Translations under genes and position numbers: made by a program
Part shown: positions 24,010-34,013 of the stretch, piece after piece
Layout of the letters: each line of letters opens with the position of its first letter
Position numbering within the stretch: position 1 is the stretch's first letter
The notes under the pieces: generated by a model
Database searches by the model: none
What the model saw: the letters and a program-made list of their open reading frames with translations, nothing else
Told to the model about the DNA's origin: nothing
NCBI GenBank assembly: GCA_947500055.1
Contig: CANMQO010000002.1
Coordinates: 248,001 to 312,000, forward strand
Reading direction: 5' to 3'
Source: an uncultured Paracoccaceae bacterium
Lineage (GTDB): Bacteria > Pseudomonadota > Alphaproteobacteria > Rhodobacterales > Rhodobacteraceae
Length of the DNA stretch: 64,000 nt

Positions 24010-25881
24010 TCACGCAAGTGCTTCAGGCGTGGCCTGGGCCTCATCACTGCCCGTTTGATACCCTTCTACAAATGTCAGCAAAGTGCCGCGCAGGGCTGCC
24101 GCATCATTGTTTTCAACTGCGGTATCCAGTTCCCGCAACATGCTCGCCACTTCGATCTCGCTCAGCTTCTTCTCTGATGCGCGCATGATTTTCTCATGCG
24201 GCGTTTCAACAAGGTTCTTGCCGTCGATCAATAATTCCTCATAGAGCTTCTCACCCTTACGCAGCCCCACGATCTCAATCTCGATCCCATTGGGGTTTTC
24301 TGGGCTCATGATCTTGGCCCCGGCCATTTTGATCATGCGATGCGCAATGTCGATGATCTTAACCGGTTTTCCCATATCCAGAACAAACACATCGCCACCC
24401 TCGGCAAAGGCACCCGCGACCAGAACAAGGCGGGCAGCCTCAGGAATCGTCATGAAGTACCGGGTCACTTCGGGATGGGTCACCGTGACCGGCCCGCCTG
24501 CCCGGATCTGTGCCTGAAACAACGGCAAAACAGACCCTGACGAACCCAGAACATTGCCAAATCGCACCATGGAAAATCGCGTGACTTCAGTGCGCGTTTG
24601 CAGATCCTGAATAACCAGTTCAGCCAAACGTTTTGTTGCACCCATCACATTGGTCGGGCGCACGGCCTTGTCCGTCGAAACCAGAATGAACCGTTCAACA
24701 CGAGCCTCCCTTGCCGCCATGGCGACAACCTGGGTGCCGACCACATTGTTGCGGACACCTTCGATCTCGTTTTCTTCAACGATCGGAACGTGTTTGTACG
24801 CAGCGGCGTGCAAAACAATCTCTGCACCCGTTTCTTTCAAGACGTTGGCTACCCGGGCCCGATCGGTGACAGAACCAAGACGCGAAGTGACCTGAATACC
24901 TTGCTTCTGCGCCTTCATGCGCATTTCACGATCAATCTCGTACATCGCGAATTCGTTCTGTTCGAACAGAACAATATGCGATGGTCGGCAGTTCAGGACC
25001 TGTCTGGCAAGCTCCGATCCAATCGAACCACCGGCACCCGTGATAAAGACGACCCGCCCGGCATAGGCTTTCGCAATCTCGGGGATATCAAGATCGACCT
25101 TGTCCCGGCTCAACAACTCATCGGGTGATATGGTCCGCAGTTCGGTGTTACTTTTCTCGATCAATTCAACGTAAGAAGGCAATACACGTACTTCGAGCGG
25201 CAGAGCCTCAAAGCTCCTCAGCATGTCCTCGCGCTCTGTTTCGGTCAATGAAGGGATGGCAAGCAGAACCTGCTTGATCTCTCCGCGTGCGGCCAGTTGC
25301 GCAAGCTTTTCGCGTGGCGCAACCCGCAAATCAGAGATCAGCAAACCATGCAGGTTCGGGTTGTCATCCGTAAAGATGACCGGCCGGAATTCCGGGCTTT
25401 GCCGCAATGCAGAGGCAAGCTGAATCCCCGCAGCACCGGCCCCGTGGATCGCAACAGGAATGCCTTCAGCCGCCTCCCATGGCTTATTCAATAAGAACAA
25501 ACCCAAGGTACGCCCCATGACCGACAACACAAAAAAGACGATCCCGAAAATGATCGGTATGGATCGGGGCGTCCACACGCCCATGATGTAACTCAGCACA
25601 ATCGCGACCACGCCCAATGCCGCCGCAGTCATGCTAACGCGGGCGGTTCCGCGCATGTCCAATGCAGAAAGCTTGATTTTTGGCAGACCCGCCAGCAGGA
25701 TCACAATAGGGGCCGCAAGTGACACCGCAATGATCAACGGCAACGCGTCTTTGACATATTGGATTGGGGTAAGCGTGCTGAACCTCAGACAATAGGCCAG
25801 ATAAAACGCAACCGGCGCCATGATTGCGTCAAACGAAAGATAGACGGCTTGCTTTCTTGATCTGGGCAGATTTTCTAACAC
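24010..25881 (-). CDS. Membrane-bound nucleotide-sugar 4,6-dehydratase (CapD/WbpM/PglF family)
   Basis: This 623-residue protein has four N-terminal membrane helices (about 12-120), a CoA-binding-like Rossmann domain (about 140-260), then an SDR dehydratase domain. The SDR domain has the nucleotide loop VFITGAGGSIGSELARQVL near 285 and the STDKAVRPTNVMGATKR block near 395. Relatives convert UDP-GlcNAc into a 4-keto-6-deoxy intermediate, the first step to di-N-acetylbacillosamine or QuiNAc/FucNAc-type sugars. With the PglC-like transferase this suggests a deoxy-amino sugar at the reducing end of the glycan. Confidence 0.94.
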   Translation of the reverse strand: MLENLPRSRKQAVYLSFDAIMAPVAFYLAYCLRFSTLTPIQYVKDALPLIIAVSLAAPIVILLAGLPKIKLSALDMRGTARVSMTAAALGVVAIVLSYIMGVWTPRSIPIIFGIVFFVLSVMGRTLGLFLLNKPWEAAEGIPVAIHGAGAAGIQLASALRQSPEFRPVIFTDDNPNLHGLLISDLRVAPREKLAQLAARGEIKQVLLAIPSLTETEREDMLRSFEALPLEVRVLPSYVELIEKSNTELRTISPDELLSRDKVDLDIPEIAKAYAGRVVFITGAGGSIGSELARQVLNCRPSHIVLFEQNEFAMYEIDREMRMKAQKQGIQVTSRLGSVTDRARVANVLKETGAEIVLHAAAYKHVPIVEENEIEGVRNNVVGTQVVAMAAREARVERFILVSTDKAVRPTNVMGATKRLAELVIQDLQTRTEVTRFSMVRFGNVLGSSGSVLPLFQAQIRAGGPVTVTHPEVTRYFMTIPEAARLVLVAGAFAEGGDVFVLDMGKPVKIIDIAHRMIKMAGAKIMSPENPNGIEIEIVGLRKGEKLYEELLIDGKNLVETPHEKIMRASEKKLSEIEVASMLRELDTAVENNDAAALRGTLLTFVEGYQTGSDEAQATPEALA

Positions 25882-28052: not shown

Positions 28053-28895
28053 TTAACGACCCTTCTTCTTGGCGTGACGCGAACGAACGATAAGCCGCTG
28101 CGACGCTTTGTTTTTGTTACGGGTACGCTTGCCCTTGGTGTCTTTACCCCAAGGAGTAACCGGCGTACGACCACCAGACGTGCGGCCTTCACCACCACCA
28201 TGCGGGTGATCGATCGGGTTCATGGCAACACCACGCACAGATGGGCGGATGCCCTTGTGACGGTTGCGACCAGCTTTACCGAAGTTCTGGTTTGAGTTGT
28301 CCGGGTTGGACACAGCACCCACAGTGGCCATGCATTCCTGACGGATCAGGCGCAATTCACCGGAAGACAGACGGACCTGCGCGTAGCCACCATCACGACC
28401 CACAAACTGGGCGTAGGTGCCGGCTGCACGGGCGATCTGGCCGCCTTTGCCTGGCTTCATTTCGATGTTGTGAACGATTGTCCCGATGGGCATGCCAGAG
28501 AAGGGCATCGCGTTGCCGGGCTTAATGTCAGCCTTGGCAGATGCGATCACCTTGTCACCAACAGCCAGACGCTGCGGGGCAAGGATATAGGTCTGGGTGC
28601 CATCTTCGTATTGAATAAGGGCGATAAACGCGGTCCGGTTCGGGTCATATTCGATCCGTGCGACAACAGCGGACATATCCAGCTTATTACGCTTGAAATC
28701 GACGATGCGGTAAAGACGCTTTGCGCCCCCACCAATGCGACGCATGGTGATCCGTCCGGTGTTGTTCCGGCCGCCCGATTTGGTCAAACCCTGAGTAAGG
28801 GATTTGACAGGACGTCCTTTCCAAAGCTCCGAACGGTCGATCAGCACCAGCCCACGCTGGCCCGGCGTCGTCGGTTTGTACGACTTGAGTGCCAT
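28053..28895 (-). CDS. rplB: 50S ribosomal protein L2
   Basis: The 280 residues contain the L2 signature [14 protein letters not shown] near 225, with the conserved His close to the peptidyl transferase centre. It is the first gene of the downstream S10 segment. It is separated from rplW by 1.67 kb, where neighbours normally abut. A small GC hairpin (GGCCCC with GGGGCC, 28920-28935) sits in its leader. A terminator at 29015-29036 isolates it from upstream transcripts, so a promoter within the preceding ~120 bases is expected although none is clear by eye. Confidence 0.98.
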
Positions 28896-28976: not shown

Positions 28977-28996
28977 GTAGGGTGGGTGAAACCCAC
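28977..28996. repeat. Hairpin repeat (left copy) at edge of the rplW/rplB insertion
   Basis: The tail GTAGG runs into the stem GTGGGT-gaa-ACCCAC. The 11 bases GTAGGGTGGGT at 28977-28987 are the exact reverse complement of ACCCACCCTAC at 30504-30514, so the two copies bracket the inserted gene with their tails pointing outward. It is a member of a dispersed family in this window. Confidence 0.7.
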
Positions 28997-29014
28997 GCGT
29001 CGGCCAAATCAAAA

Positions 29015-29036
29015 CACCCCGAACGAATCGGGGGTG
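29015..29036 (-). terminator. Intrinsic terminator after the inserted membrane-protein gene
   Basis: The stem CACCCCGA pairs with TCGGGGGTG (one bulged G). On the minus strand it is followed by TTTTGATTT. It lies between the inserted gene (stop at 29189) and rplB and should block read-through into rplB. Confidence 0.75.
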
Positions 29037-29188
29037 AAGCGATTGGCGGGATGTAGCAGGGGATGGGTGGGGTGGCAAGGGCTTCTAGTTACAATCTGCG
29101 AAGGTATGGTTTGGCTTGGACTGACCAGTTCGTCCTAGATGGGTTGCTACCATTTGTTTACTTCAAGGTCACGAATGCGCAATCGCTG

Positions 29189-30196
29189 TTATTGGCCTCG
29201 AATTTCGTCAAGTATTGGAAGAACAAGCGGATTGTGGACTTCAGCGCGTAGCACTCCCCTCGAAAAAACAGCGTGTGCTCCAAGCCCATGCTCCTTTTTG
29301 AGGTTGTCAACAAGCAGCTTGGCGCGATGAACTTGCGCGGAGGTGAACTCGCACCCTGTTTCAGGCTCTATTTCAAAATCAGTCCAGACATCGCATGCCA
29401 AAGCAACAGCAATTGCTCCTTCGTTGGAGCCAAGAGCAAATGCGGGGGTTTCGTCAATTGACCGGCCAGTCTGAACATTTCCTTCCCGATCTACGAAGTA
29501 ATGCATACCCACGTCTCGCCATCCGAGACTCAAATGGTAGCTCCTTATAGTCGCCAGAGGTAGATTCGCTTCTGCGCCGAGTATTATCTTCTCAATAGTC
29601 CTGTTGGTCGTAACTCTTGGCAAAACAGGAATTCCGATTTGATCGGGATCTTGCCCGGCTTCAATTATTGTCGCTTCAGCCATTCTTGAAAGCTCGTCTG
29701 TATTGAGTTCAGTCAGAACTCCAGCCCGCGCGAGAAATAGTAGGGTGCGAGCGCGATCGACCTCAAGCAAGTCGGTCTCAAGAAGTAGTTGCTCCACAAT
29801 TTTGTATTGAAATTGGCGTTCTTCGGCTCTTGCAGACCTCTCTGCTTCGCTTTCAGCGGAGCGCTCATCCAATTGCTGTTTAAGCCTAGCCTCGCTAGCC
29901 TCGAGTTCAGTCTTTACCTCTTGGATTGTAATCGTGTTCGTCGTCTCTTCTACACCTCGCAACCGGTCAAAGACGAAAGTGGCGCTCAATGTTAGCAATC
30001 CTGCCAGCGCCGCAACAAGGGGTGTACTCCAAATAAATCTTCGCGCCTCCGACTTGATTTTCTTAAGCTGAAGTTCTTGGTCAAGTTTGCGATCCTCTGC
30101 CGTAAACATCCGATCTGCAATGACGGATCTGACGGACTCGGGAATTTCACGATTTTCCAACAATTTTAGGTCAATAACCGACAATAAGAACCCCAA
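29189..30196 (-). CDS. Membrane-anchored protein with degenerate amidase_2/PGRP-like domain, inserted between rplW and rplB
   Basis: This is a 335-residue protein. A charged N-terminal part (1-55) precedes one membrane helix at about 56-76. A coiled-coil, Glu/Arg-rich stretch (about 90-130) and a helical linker follow. Residues ~195-330 resemble an N-acetylmuramoyl-L-alanine amidase type 2/peptidoglycan-recognition fold (YHLSLGWRDVGMHYFVDREG and VQTGR, about 220-245). The zinc-ligand positions appear lost: the usual HHTA reads GAEA near 207-210, and the usual GH and DPG near the C-terminus read FS and NPL. It would therefore bind, not cleave, if the fold is right. Base composition is visibly AT-richer than the flanking ribosomal genes. 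Function unknown; an accessory or defence role is possible. Confidence 0.75.
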   Translation of the reverse strand: MGFLLSVIDLKLLENREIPESVRSVIADRMFTAEDRKLDQELQLKKIKSEARRFIWSTPLVAALAGLLTLSATFVFDRLRGVEETTNTITIQEVKTELEASEARLKQQLDERSAESEAERSARAEERQFQYKIVEQLLLETDLLEVDRARTLLFLARAGVLTELNTDELSRMAEATIIEAGQDPDQIGIPVLPRVTTNRTIEKIILGAEANLPLATIRSYHLSLGWRDVGMHYFVDREGNVQTGRSIDETPAFALGSNEGAIAVALACDVWTDFEIEPETGCEFTSAQVHRAKLLVDNLKKEHGLGAHAVFSRGVLRAEVHNPLVLPILDEIRGQ

Positions 30197-30493
30197 AAGC
30201 CGATAATTAATAGCCCTATACTACCAAAGGTTGCTATTCTTGGCAAATCAAGATCTGGCTATGTTCCGGCCTCCCGAAACGGCAAGCAAAGATGGCTTGT
30301 ACCGCACACCTACATCGTGAGTCAGCTCAAGAACGATACAGTGGATCATTTTCCAGTTCGCGCGGGCTGGCCCTTTGGTGGCGTCACGCGCATCGCATCG
30401 TCGGCGTATGTGTGGCGCCATAAAGTCCAGGCGTGAGGGCAGTTCCTCCATCCCACGGGCAGGCGCGCGCCCGGCTTACGCCAATGTCGGGAT
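30197..30493. other. Region between inserted gene and right repeat, no gene recognised
   Basis: These 297 bases lie upstream of the inserted gene. The first ~60 are AT-rich like the insert and likely hold its promoter. The remainder returns to GC-rich sequence with short unsupported frames, possibly a decayed coding fragment. Confidence 0.4.
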
Positions 30494-30514
30494 GGTGGGT
30501 TGTACCCACCCTAC
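30494..30514. repeat. Hairpin repeat (right copy) at edge of the rplW/rplB insertion
   Basis: The stem GGTGGGT-tgt-ACCCACC is followed by the tail CTAC. Its last 11 bases mirror 28977-28987. It directly adjoins the rplW terminator. Confidence 0.7.
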
Positions 30515-30517
30515 AAC

Positions 30518-30551
30518 GAAAAAGCCCCCGGCGCTTGCCGAGGGCTTTTTC
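30518..30551 (-). terminator. Intrinsic terminator after rplW
   Basis: The 10-bp arms GAAAAAGCCC and GGGCTTTTTC have an inner GGC/GCC pairing. It starts about 18 bases past the rplW stop on the minus strand. It ends the rpsJ-rplC-rplD-rplW unit before the inserted gene. Confidence 0.9.
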
Positions 30552-30568
30552 ATTCATATCAGACCGGA

Positions 30569-30865
30569 TCAAAGACCTGTGCTCACGTCGATGGTGTTAC
30601 CCTCTTCGAGCGTGACATAGGCTTTCTTGACGTCTTTGCGGGTACCCAATGCACCACGGAAACGCTTTACCTTGCCTTTGGTGATCGATGTGTTCACCGC
30701 TTTGACCTTCACACCAAACAGCGCCTCAACAGCCTGCTTGATCATTGGTTTGTTCGCGTCGATCGCCACTTCGAAGACAACGGCATTCTGCTCGGACGCC
30801 ATGGTTGCTTTTTCAGTGATGATCGGCTTGCGGATCACGTCGTAATGTTCTGCTTTCGCGCTCAT
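30569..30865 (-). CDS. rplW: 50S ribosomal protein L23
   Basis: The 98 residues carry the L23 signature [11 protein letters not shown] near 13 and the exposed loop that serves as docking site for trigger factor and SRP at the tunnel exit. The start overlaps the rplD stop by 4 bases (ATGA). In the usual S10 operon rplB follows within a few bases; here a terminator and an inserted gene intervene. Confidence 0.98.
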
Positions 30866-32806: not shown

Positions 32807-33958
32807 CTACCTTTCAACAATGAAGCGCGCGCGTTCGTAGAGCTCATCAAAGGTTAGAATATCAATGCTTGCCTGCTCTCTCCGGAAGAGCTCAAAAGTG
32901 TCCAATGCAACGCTCCTATCTCGTGGGTTCTGAATCGCGTCAAATTCCTGGCGTGATCCAAAGATCAGTACCGTTTTAGTGTTGCGAGTTCGCGCCACTA
33001 GTCTTTCCGAACCTTCTTTGTTGTAGTGCTCTCCGGACTGCGCGAACGAAAGCCACTCAGCTTTTTGCTCAAGTATCTGAGAAATAGCCGCGATGAATTC
33101 ATTCGAGAACAACTTCGTTCCAGCTCGCCCGCCTTGGCTCTTGAATATCTTGAGGTCCGGCCGCTTTATTTCGACTAGCACCGTGTAGTCCGTAAATGTT
33201 CTCAAGAAGTCTACAACCGGTTTGTTGCGATTATCGGAACCACCCGGACCTACGGTCATTTCGCGATCAAAAGGCAGGGTGATGCGGTAATCAAGTCCGT
33301 AACCAAATACCCAGTCTTCGGTTTCCAGAAACTCTTGCCAGTCTTTCTCAAGCCATGAGCGGTCATTTAAACGCCTGTCGAATTCCCTTAGCCCTGCTCG
33401 TCGGCCTAGGAGGATGTTGACGTCCTCCTTTGTCAGTTCGTCTCGCAGATTTGCTAGCAGTCTAACTCTATTGTCTGCAGAGACTGACTGAAATGCTTCA
33501 ATGACGTTCCGATGCTCCGCATCGACAACTACCTTTGGACCAGAGCCTTGGGAGATATCCTCGATCTGAAACTTCGCTTCATCCTCGAAGTTTATGAAGT
33601 TGATTTGCCGCAAAAACCGAACCAGACGTTCAAATTCATCACTACGAAAGCTGAATGCCTCCTTCTCTTGCGCCCAAACCGCCTCGCCGCCAAAATCCTT
33701 GAAGGTTTCCAAAGTGACTCGGCGCACGCTAGACCCATCTTGCGTCACCAATGCTGTGATCTGCGTTCGTCTTTTGTTTCCGCTTAGCCGCAAGCAAAGG
33801 GCACCTTCAATTTCGCCAAGGTGCAAAACGTCACTGCCATCAATGACCATAGAGACATTCCGTTTGCCGACGGTGTCTGTCTCGTTCCAAGTGAACAGCT
33901 TTGAGATGTATGTCTTCGCTTCTTTTCGAAGTTTAAAGAACTCGTAGTCATCACTCAT
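32807..33958 (-). CDS. Shedu-type anti-phage nuclease (SduA, DUF4263 domain)
   Basis: The 383-residue protein starts at ATG 33958 (MSDDYEFFKLRKEAKTYIS). The C-terminal ~180 residues match the DUF4263/Shedu nuclease core of the PD-(D/E)xK type: WQEFLETEDWVFGYG (207-221), NKPVVDF with D250, LVEIKRPD with E263 and K265, a Gln-bearing helix (AAISQILEQ, 290-298), VLIFGSRQEF and the closing ILTFDELYERAR. Shedu proteins are single-gene defence systems that nick DNA of phages or plasmids. Its N-terminal ~200 residues are a variable region, probably the sensor. It lies between the tuf terminator and the rpsJ promoter. Composition is AT-richer than its neighbours, suggesting transfer. Confidence 0.88.
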   Translation of the reverse strand: MSDDYEFFKLRKEAKTYISKLFTWNETDTVGKRNVSMVIDGSDVLHLGEIEGALCLRLSGNKRRTQITALVTQDGSSVRRVTLETFKDFGGEAVWAQEKEAFSFRSDEFERLVRFLRQINFINFEDEAKFQIEDISQGSGPKVVVDAEHRNVIEAFQSVSADNRVRLLANLRDELTKEDVNILLGRRAGLREFDRRLNDRSWLEKDWQEFLETEDWVFGYGLDYRITLPFDREMTVGPGGSDNRNKPVVDFLRTFTDYTVLVEIKRPDLKIFKSQGGRAGTKLFSNEFIAAISQILEQKAEWLSFAQSGEHYNKEGSERLVARTRNTKTVLIFGSRQEFDAIQNPRDRSVALDTFELFRREQASIDILTFDELYERARFIVER

Positions 33959-34013
33959 TTGCAACACCTGAAACCATCTCAAGTTGTATCATCGCACGCG
34001 AGCGGGAAAATCA

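Follow-up and report, generated by a model that had tools for sequence, protein, structure and literature searches.

The window analysed here, a 64,000-nt stretch of DNA from an uncultured Paracoccaceae bacterium, contains a ribosomal-protein super-operon in which rplW and rplB are separated by 1673 bp. The minus-strand gene at 29189-30196 is the sole ORF of at least 70 aa called within this insert, which agrees with the earlier note that the conserved junction is split by about 1.67 kb carrying one gene. The 335-aa frame has no ATG ahead of residue 30 and lies in an open frame spanning 343 aa (Table 1). The GC content of the insert is 0.52, and the third-position GC of its gene is 0.46, versus 0.62-0.69 in rplB, fusA, rpoC and capD and 0.54 in the nearby Shedu gene; the previous description of an AT-rich, foreign-looking cassette inside the super-operon is thus supported. 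The promoter-like site ahead of the gene comes from a consensus scan that found 3 sites, compared with 1.3 expected. At the other end of the ribosomal-protein block, the super-operon of the window seems to end at rplP, since a CapD/WbpM-like epimerase gene (24010-25881, Polysacc_synt_2 E 3.8e-118) is next, with no same-strand ORF of at least 60 aa between.

Table 1. Features of the rplW-rplB insert, its flanks and the second variable junction (positions of the window)
Feature	Position	Strand	Basis
rplB, right hotspot flank	28053..28895	-	
L2 (rplB) ribosomal-protein leader, L2-Alphaproteobacteria, Rfam RF03142	28898..28963	-	54.9 bits, E 1.7e-11
REP-like inverted repeat, arm 2	28977..28996	.	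20 nt, brackets insert
GATTCGT hairpin upstream of rplB	29017..29033	-	terminator scan
Pseudo-PGRP gene, membrane-anchored (predicted)	29189..30196	-	335 aa from TTG; start tentative
PGRP/Amidase_2-fold domain, residues 203-311, at least 2 zinc ligands lost	29264..29590	-	sequence searches, alignment, model
GAEA, residues 207-210, replaces first ligand motif; common to G317	29567..29578	-	alignment
Long helix, probable coiled coil, residues 85-140	29777..29944	-	predicted structure
Transmembrane helix, predicted, residues 58-76	29969..30025	-	mean hydropathy 1.86 over 19 residues; model helix 59-78
Promoter-like site TTGCCA-17-TAGTAT, TG preceding second hexamer	30218..30246	-	consensus scan alone
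Left-border element, common to other genomes' junctions	30319..30484	-	sequence comparison, model search
REP-like inverted repeat, arm 1	30495..30514	.	20 nt, brackets insert
Terminator hairpin directly after rplW	30515..30554	-	hairpin search
rplW, left hotspot flank	30569..30865	-	
Shedu SduA, cargo of tuf-rpsJ (second variable junction)	32807..33982	-	PADLOC E 2.6e-121; Pfam SduA_C E 2.6e-27

The site of the insert looks like a transcription boundary, with a terminator after rplW and the L2 leader before rplB, the leader suggesting that rplB begins its own regulatory unit. Of the two hairpins reported previously, the one placed at 30518-30551 was found again as a slightly longer element directly after rplW, which the simple terminator scan did not list, probably because its T run pairs inside the stem; the one placed at 29015-29036 corresponds to a GATTCGT hairpin listed by that scan, which gave 4 terminator-like sites versus 2.1 expected. 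Across the junctions compared, 53 of 62 occupied ones (>300 bp) and 13 of 26 narrow ones have a terminator no more than 110 nt past the end of rplW, and the GATTCGT motif precedes rplB in 53/62 and 5/26, respectively. A Thr_leader candidate at 30515-30594 was rejected (score 30.2, gathering threshold 55; it overlaps the rplW terminator).

The segment originally delimited as 28977-30514 has exactly the outer limits of the 20-nt REP-like inverted repeat, a palindrome with 30 genomic matches at one mismatch or less (reversed control, 0). REP-like palindromes of various kinds were also seen by eye near the insert ends of L067, L069, L101, L223, L237 and others. The left-border element was modelled from seven junctions, and a search of 1.33 Mb of ribosomal-protein regions placed it at 21 distinct sites (two duplicates removed by hand), 17 in rplW-rplB, one in tuf-rpsJ and three about 2 kb or less upstream of rplB where rplW was unplaced. 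The element is not strictly hotspot-specific: it has 29 match pieces in 16/55 genomes, of which, sorted by hand, 16 (from 14 genomes) are next to rplB and 13 are at other places; the genome of the window has one copy. Copies 6.5-8 kb downstream of rplB (G050:C16:13770, G049:C2:276140 and 277132) perhaps mark a further insertion site in this region.

Ribosomal-protein operons are considered some of the most stable regions in bacterial genomes. We found rplB in 48/55 genomes of the genus (taken as Yoonia from the assignment of G008), took in the surrounding region for 45 of the 47 genomes besides that of the window (all but G038 and G032) and measured 46 loci including the window, with rplW placed in 35; the remaining loci met a contig edge, had rplW further away, or gave no match (L086). 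The rplW-rplB interval ranged from 324 to 5347 bp (median 1846) and exceeded 300 bp in all 35 loci, mostly with different cargo. The tuf-rpsJ interval measured 441-2617 bp in 19 loci, and the other seven junctions from rpsJ to rplP measured -143 to 27 bp. For other genera, with rplB in 105 of 120 genomes including that of the window and 60 of the 104 further genomes used, rplW-rplB spanned 24-5517 bp (>300 bp in 27 of the 53 measured loci) and tuf-rpsJ 50-1597 bp (>300 bp in 9/41), while rpsJ-rplC, rplC-rplD and rplD-rplW never exceeded 149 bp, other-genus loci included. These measurements demonstrate a slot of variable content, and we consider it very probable that the rplW-rplB junction is an exchangeable hotspot.

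The super-operon seems to be split at rplW-rplB in several genomes. In seven other-genus loci rplW was not within 11 kb of rplB. Six genus loci were viewed further upstream: in G043, rplW lies about 17 kb off, the interval holding, by eye, a 2862-aa adhesin-like protein and type-I-secretion-like genes, and in the other five a complete rplW was not found within about 18 kb upstream. The loci with rplB and no complete rplW within 11-18 kb upstream are L107-L110, L112, L194, L195, L209, L215, L216, L221 and L225; L109 contains a fragment resembling the last 18 residues of rplW (1827-1880). Separately, rplB of G033 (C2:2971548-2972389) reads as two pieces, one of which contains a stop, perhaps a sequencing error.

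The flanks of the insert are mosaic. The ribosomal-protein coding blocks of the window are nearest to L062-L064 (0.94-0.96). For the flank after rplW the nearest sequences are instead L076 (92% identity, 215 nt) and L075 (87%, 220 nt), whose ribosomal-protein genes are more distant from the window than those of L062-L064, and for the flank before rplB they are L091 (95% identity, 154 nt) and L065 (93%, 179 nt). The similarity switches at the rplW stop and just ahead of the rplB leader. In 18 of 34 genomes the nearest neighbours of the left and right flanks differ, near ties and one undefined case (L101) included. This pattern is consistent with slot replacement via homologous recombination in the conserved ribosomal-protein genes; a gene-transfer-agent route for the exchange is only a thought.

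The junction carries known defence genes. Cargo ORFs were called mechanically, so that some are spurious, and some cargo families recur in two to four genomes while most do not. We scanned with PADLOC 32 cargo proteins (2 from the window, 20 picked by eye and 10 drawn at random from the 45 not yet scanned), and 13 of the 32 matched at E<=1e-5, 22 of the 32 being given or chosen by eye. The 13 matches fall in seven rplW-rplB and four tuf-rpsJ junctions and include AbiP2 (3.7e-188), Shedu (2.6e-121), SoFic (2.1e-62), PDC-M55C (2.2e-57; GmrSD_N by Pfam), an OLD-like gene (6.2e-37, two frames counted), PDC-M04A (7.7e-24), PDC-S32 (4.9e-21), SIR2/ThsA (4.9e-17) with an adjoining ParA-like ATPase (1.6e-6), AbiTii (2.4e-8), PDC-S60 and PDC-S08 (5'-nucleotidase by Pfam). 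The OLD-like gene, in two overlapping frames at L070:6866-8765, is probably broken or affected by a sequence error. Pfam additionally detected HEPN, SocA-Panacea and PIN domains. Cargo of other kinds comprises PAP2, CsgG-like and 5'-nucleotidase proteins and chemoreceptors (by eye), and the other-genus cargo is mostly non-defence as judged by eye. Ten control proteins were drawn at random from a pool of 78 whose genes lie upstream of rplB in five genomes that have no rplW close by; in this small test PADLOC matched 1/10 random cargo proteins (E 7.6e-114) and 1/10 controls (best E 7.3e-7), so enrichment in defence genes is not shown.

The earlier note had suggested that the gene of the insert is a companion of the Shedu gene, and this found no support: Shedu occupies the other variable junction, tuf-rpsJ, and was not noticed beside the relatives described below, within 1.5 kb in G317, within 6 kb in G684/L039, or within 10 kb on the G008 plasmid as judged by product names only. 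No other defence genes were noticed beside the G317 and G684 relatives. The two genes of the window are more aptly seen as cargo carried by a pair of adjacent hotspots than as partners.

The encoded protein was previously described as having a membrane helix, a coiled coil and an amidase_2/PGRP-like domain, and all three were recovered, the first two as a predicted helix and a long model helix. The Pfam Amidase_2 (PF01510) match is weak (E 6.4e-4, 20.5 bits, curated cut-off 26). A phmmer search of PDB sequences with the single window sequence detected T7 lysozyme (E 1.1e-7) plus several PGRPs. The AlphaFold2 model, built with 28 sequences, has mean pLDDT 73 and pTM 0.45; by residue block, pLDDT is 84-94 over 201-300, except 251-260 (77) and 271-280 (55), and below 50 in the tail 311-335. 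Foldseek with this model gave T7 lysozyme as the best match (E 2.1e-6); 42 PDB entries matched at E<=1e-3, every one of them an amidase or a PGRP and none an unrelated domain. The input alignment of the model included 26 viral amidase domains, which biases it toward an amidase fold, but the single-sequence phmmer search agrees. The domain shares with Amidase_2, PGRPs and T7 lysozyme the fold and the core motifs (YH..GW..G.H, G.V..GR, N).

The zinc site of this domain has lost at least two of its three ligands. In an alignment with 31 other domains (L001, the same as the window gene, and L022 were left out), G207 is opposite the first zinc ligand, and M231 takes the place of the GYH tyrosine, Phe in L004. 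By eye, the H, H and C ligands are all kept in 27 of the 31; L004 also is without ligands, L012 and L020 are truncated or garbled over this region, and L035 is degenerate. The third ligand, the cysteine, is L326 in the window protein. The proposed GAEA replacement of the first ligand motif was therefore borne out, together with the additional loss of the cysteine. The other proposed replacement, FS for GH at the middle ligand, was reproduced in one alignment (F311/S312), but two others place H321 or H308 there. An intact zinc site at shifted positions was rejected in spite of these histidines, because the first and third ligands are missing whichever alignment is used. We discarded Phe in place of the GAH histidine as evidence of inactivity, as intact amidases vary there too (Q, V). 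C268 and C282 of the window protein lie in a loop resembling the two-cysteine loop of L004. Altogether, this is very probably a catalytically dead PGRP-fold domain, and it differs from Amidase_2 proteins and T7 lysozyme in the Gly, Leu and Met substitutions and in the membrane anchor and long helix added in front.

The one close full-domain relative found, L004 of G317, a genome from a different genus, shows 36% identity across 124 residues. It has GAEA at the same position, lacks the cysteine ligand and carries a comparable loop containing two cysteines; with a single such relative, the sampling of constraint at the dead site is poor. The N-terminal module (helix, coil, R.R..LLF..RAG) is common to the window protein, L002 and L023, whose C-terminal domains differ. 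L002 of G008 (61/176 identical to the window protein) is identical over 391 residues to WP_342075060.1, encoded on a plasmid of Yoonia sp. SS1-5 with a DNA cytosine methyltransferase gene 0.5 kb off, an AbiEii-type gene 8 kb off and IS elements; its C-terminal domain has a weak DegS-like (trypsin-like) match (E 0.027) with GVAGAL opposite GNSGGAL. L023 of G684, found as the same protein in a Dongia MAG (L039), ends in a DUF2272 domain (domain E 1.1e-5; 25.8 bits, under the cut-off of 27) in which, beside two DUF2272 proteins, [RP]WSAAF is changed to PWNATF and the HCD site is lost.

The G317 protein has an N-terminal part of a second kind, weakly common to L049 and P0004; homology between the two kinds of module is conjecture. 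L049 (G1181) is a Peptidase_S11 protein (E 1.5e-40) with KTG changed to VTS and SxxK and SxN kept. P0004 (Rhizobium) has a phage-lysozyme-like domain (E 8e-5, under the cut-off) that by eye seems to keep its catalytic glutamate, so not every protein with such a module is dead. From their sequences, the loss of the active site appears clear in two amidase domains, probable in two others, partial in one and absent in one. On Rhizobium pRLgr12_3 (L060), two phage-lysozyme-like proteins are encoded side by side, one on a second-kind membrane module. Five of six family proteins have a K/R excess on the N side of the helix (equal in one), and an N-in topology of the window protein is predicted by this charge count alone.

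Both the gene and its module are rare. The whole gene was detected in one of 56 genus genomes, its own, and the content of the junction varies; fixation at the rplW-rplB junction was thus rejected. At E<=1e-3, matches were found in 3/56 genus genomes (its own, G008 through the N-terminal part, and G030), in 18/295 genomes of the family sample (its own, G317 and the remainder through the amidase domain) and in 15/385 of the class sample (its own, G684 through the N-terminal part, the rest through the amidase domain); these samples overlap. The G030 match (E 9.2e-4) sits in an unrelated large gene and was not accepted as a relative. The N-terminal module was found in 1/398 genomes of the phylum sample, its own, and in one locus of further genome contigs, identical in sequence to G684. 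A scan of viral sequences with the whole protein, sensitive to close relatives only, detected none, and PADLOC gave nothing at E<=1 for the window gene.

We suggest that the window protein would be single-gene cargo of the exchangeable rplW-rplB slot, an inner-membrane protein with a cytoplasmic N terminus and a predicted coil that presents the PGRP-fold domain to the periplasm. With catalysis lost, the domain would bind rather than cut; candidate ligands are muropeptides, peptidoglycan that is under strain or has been cleaved, and wall enzymes of phage or host. The protein may thereby sense peptidoglycan or a signal, as the earlier note inferred. Since the cassette has no partner gene, the output is most likely the protein's own and could act through assembly of the coil and membrane helix, by membrane disturbance or enzyme blocking. 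A protective, phage-related role is judged the most likely because defence genes also use the slot. A dead periplasmic PGRP-fold binder of this kind, carried as single-gene cargo with a protective phage-related role, is our best explanation overall, a tentative one that falls somewhat short of an even chance; the functional part, a periplasmic sensor or decoy with a protective role, we hold to be possible at slightly lower confidence still.

EnvC and NlpD have degenerate LytM domains and activate or restrain the cell's own amidases. The window protein would share with them a membrane anchor, a long helix and a dead peptidoglycan-hydrolase domain, and it may in the same manner control its host's own amidases as a strain-specific envelope housekeeping or stress regulator with no part in defence. 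The relatives of its module, mostly with wall-hydrolase-like domains and one protease-like, fit such a regulator; yet its fold is PGRP and not LytM, presence in one of 56 genus genomes is odd for a division or wall regulator, and defence genes use the same slot, so that we regard this as rather unlikely, at about one chance in a few. Drosophila PGRP-LC and PGRP-LF, membrane-anchored non-catalytic PGRPs, are among the PDB matches of the window protein, which also include amidases and other PGRPs; they and the window protein would be alike in having a non-catalytic PGRP domain outside the membrane (predicted here) on a single helix, while the window protein is bacterial and has no recognised cytoplasmic signalling domain.

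Phage amidases, T7 lysozyme first, are among the closest matches, the predicted placement is periplasmic and one gene would be enough for another candidate role, an anti-lysis decoy whose dead domain occupies peptidoglycan or pairs with phage endolysins and delays lysis by an infecting phage. The GYH tyrosine, however, is Met in the window protein and Phe in L004, so substrate binding may be altered, and we consider such a decoy improbable. We give equally little weight to a neutral passenger, a transient insertion without benefit in a boundary slot that tolerates anything: the cargo is very diverse and much of it not defence-like, and the random PADLOC test gave no enrichment, but the reading frame is unbroken, and a 36%-identical domain of another genus retains GAEA and the loop. 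Compared with these alternatives, cargo encoding a dead periplasmic binder with a protective role remains our preferred reading.

In a report on Pseudomonas aeruginosa (PMC10250203), the core defence hotspots cDHS1 and cDHS2 have fixed core flanks around very variable contents that include defence systems; their exchange is proposed to occur through homologous recombination in the conserved flanks, and cDHS1 is near pheST and rplT. On that account, rplW-rplB is alike in its fixed core flanks, variable cargo and known defence genes. It differs in that it and tuf-rpsJ are small slots within the S10 super-operon, present across many genera of a single family, with a terminator/L2-leader boundary at rplW-rplB; here ten random cargo and ten control proteins gave one PADLOC match each. 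At the level of titles and the beginnings of abstracts, with larger result sets partly covered, we found no report of an S10-operon insertion or defence hotspot, and a term search of the text of PMC10121019 gave no match.

Taken together, a slot with different genes in nearly every species of the genus is located at a regulatory boundary, and by means of its two conserved flanks, unknown genes, of which several probably act against phages, can easily be gathered across many genomes. It is conceivable, though improbable at present, that the module-bearing proteins form a class of membrane receptors in which a shared helix-and-coil module bears a dead wall hydrolase (amidase, DUF2272 or DD-carboxypeptidase) or a dead trypsin-like domain. 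Such receptors would watch the periplasm for phage entry or lysis, as a bacterial counterpart of membrane PGRPs, and would spread between species as cassettes of one gene through recombination within the ribosomal super-operon. Such a dead-hydrolase membrane family would be one of the unknown gene classes that the slot may yield.
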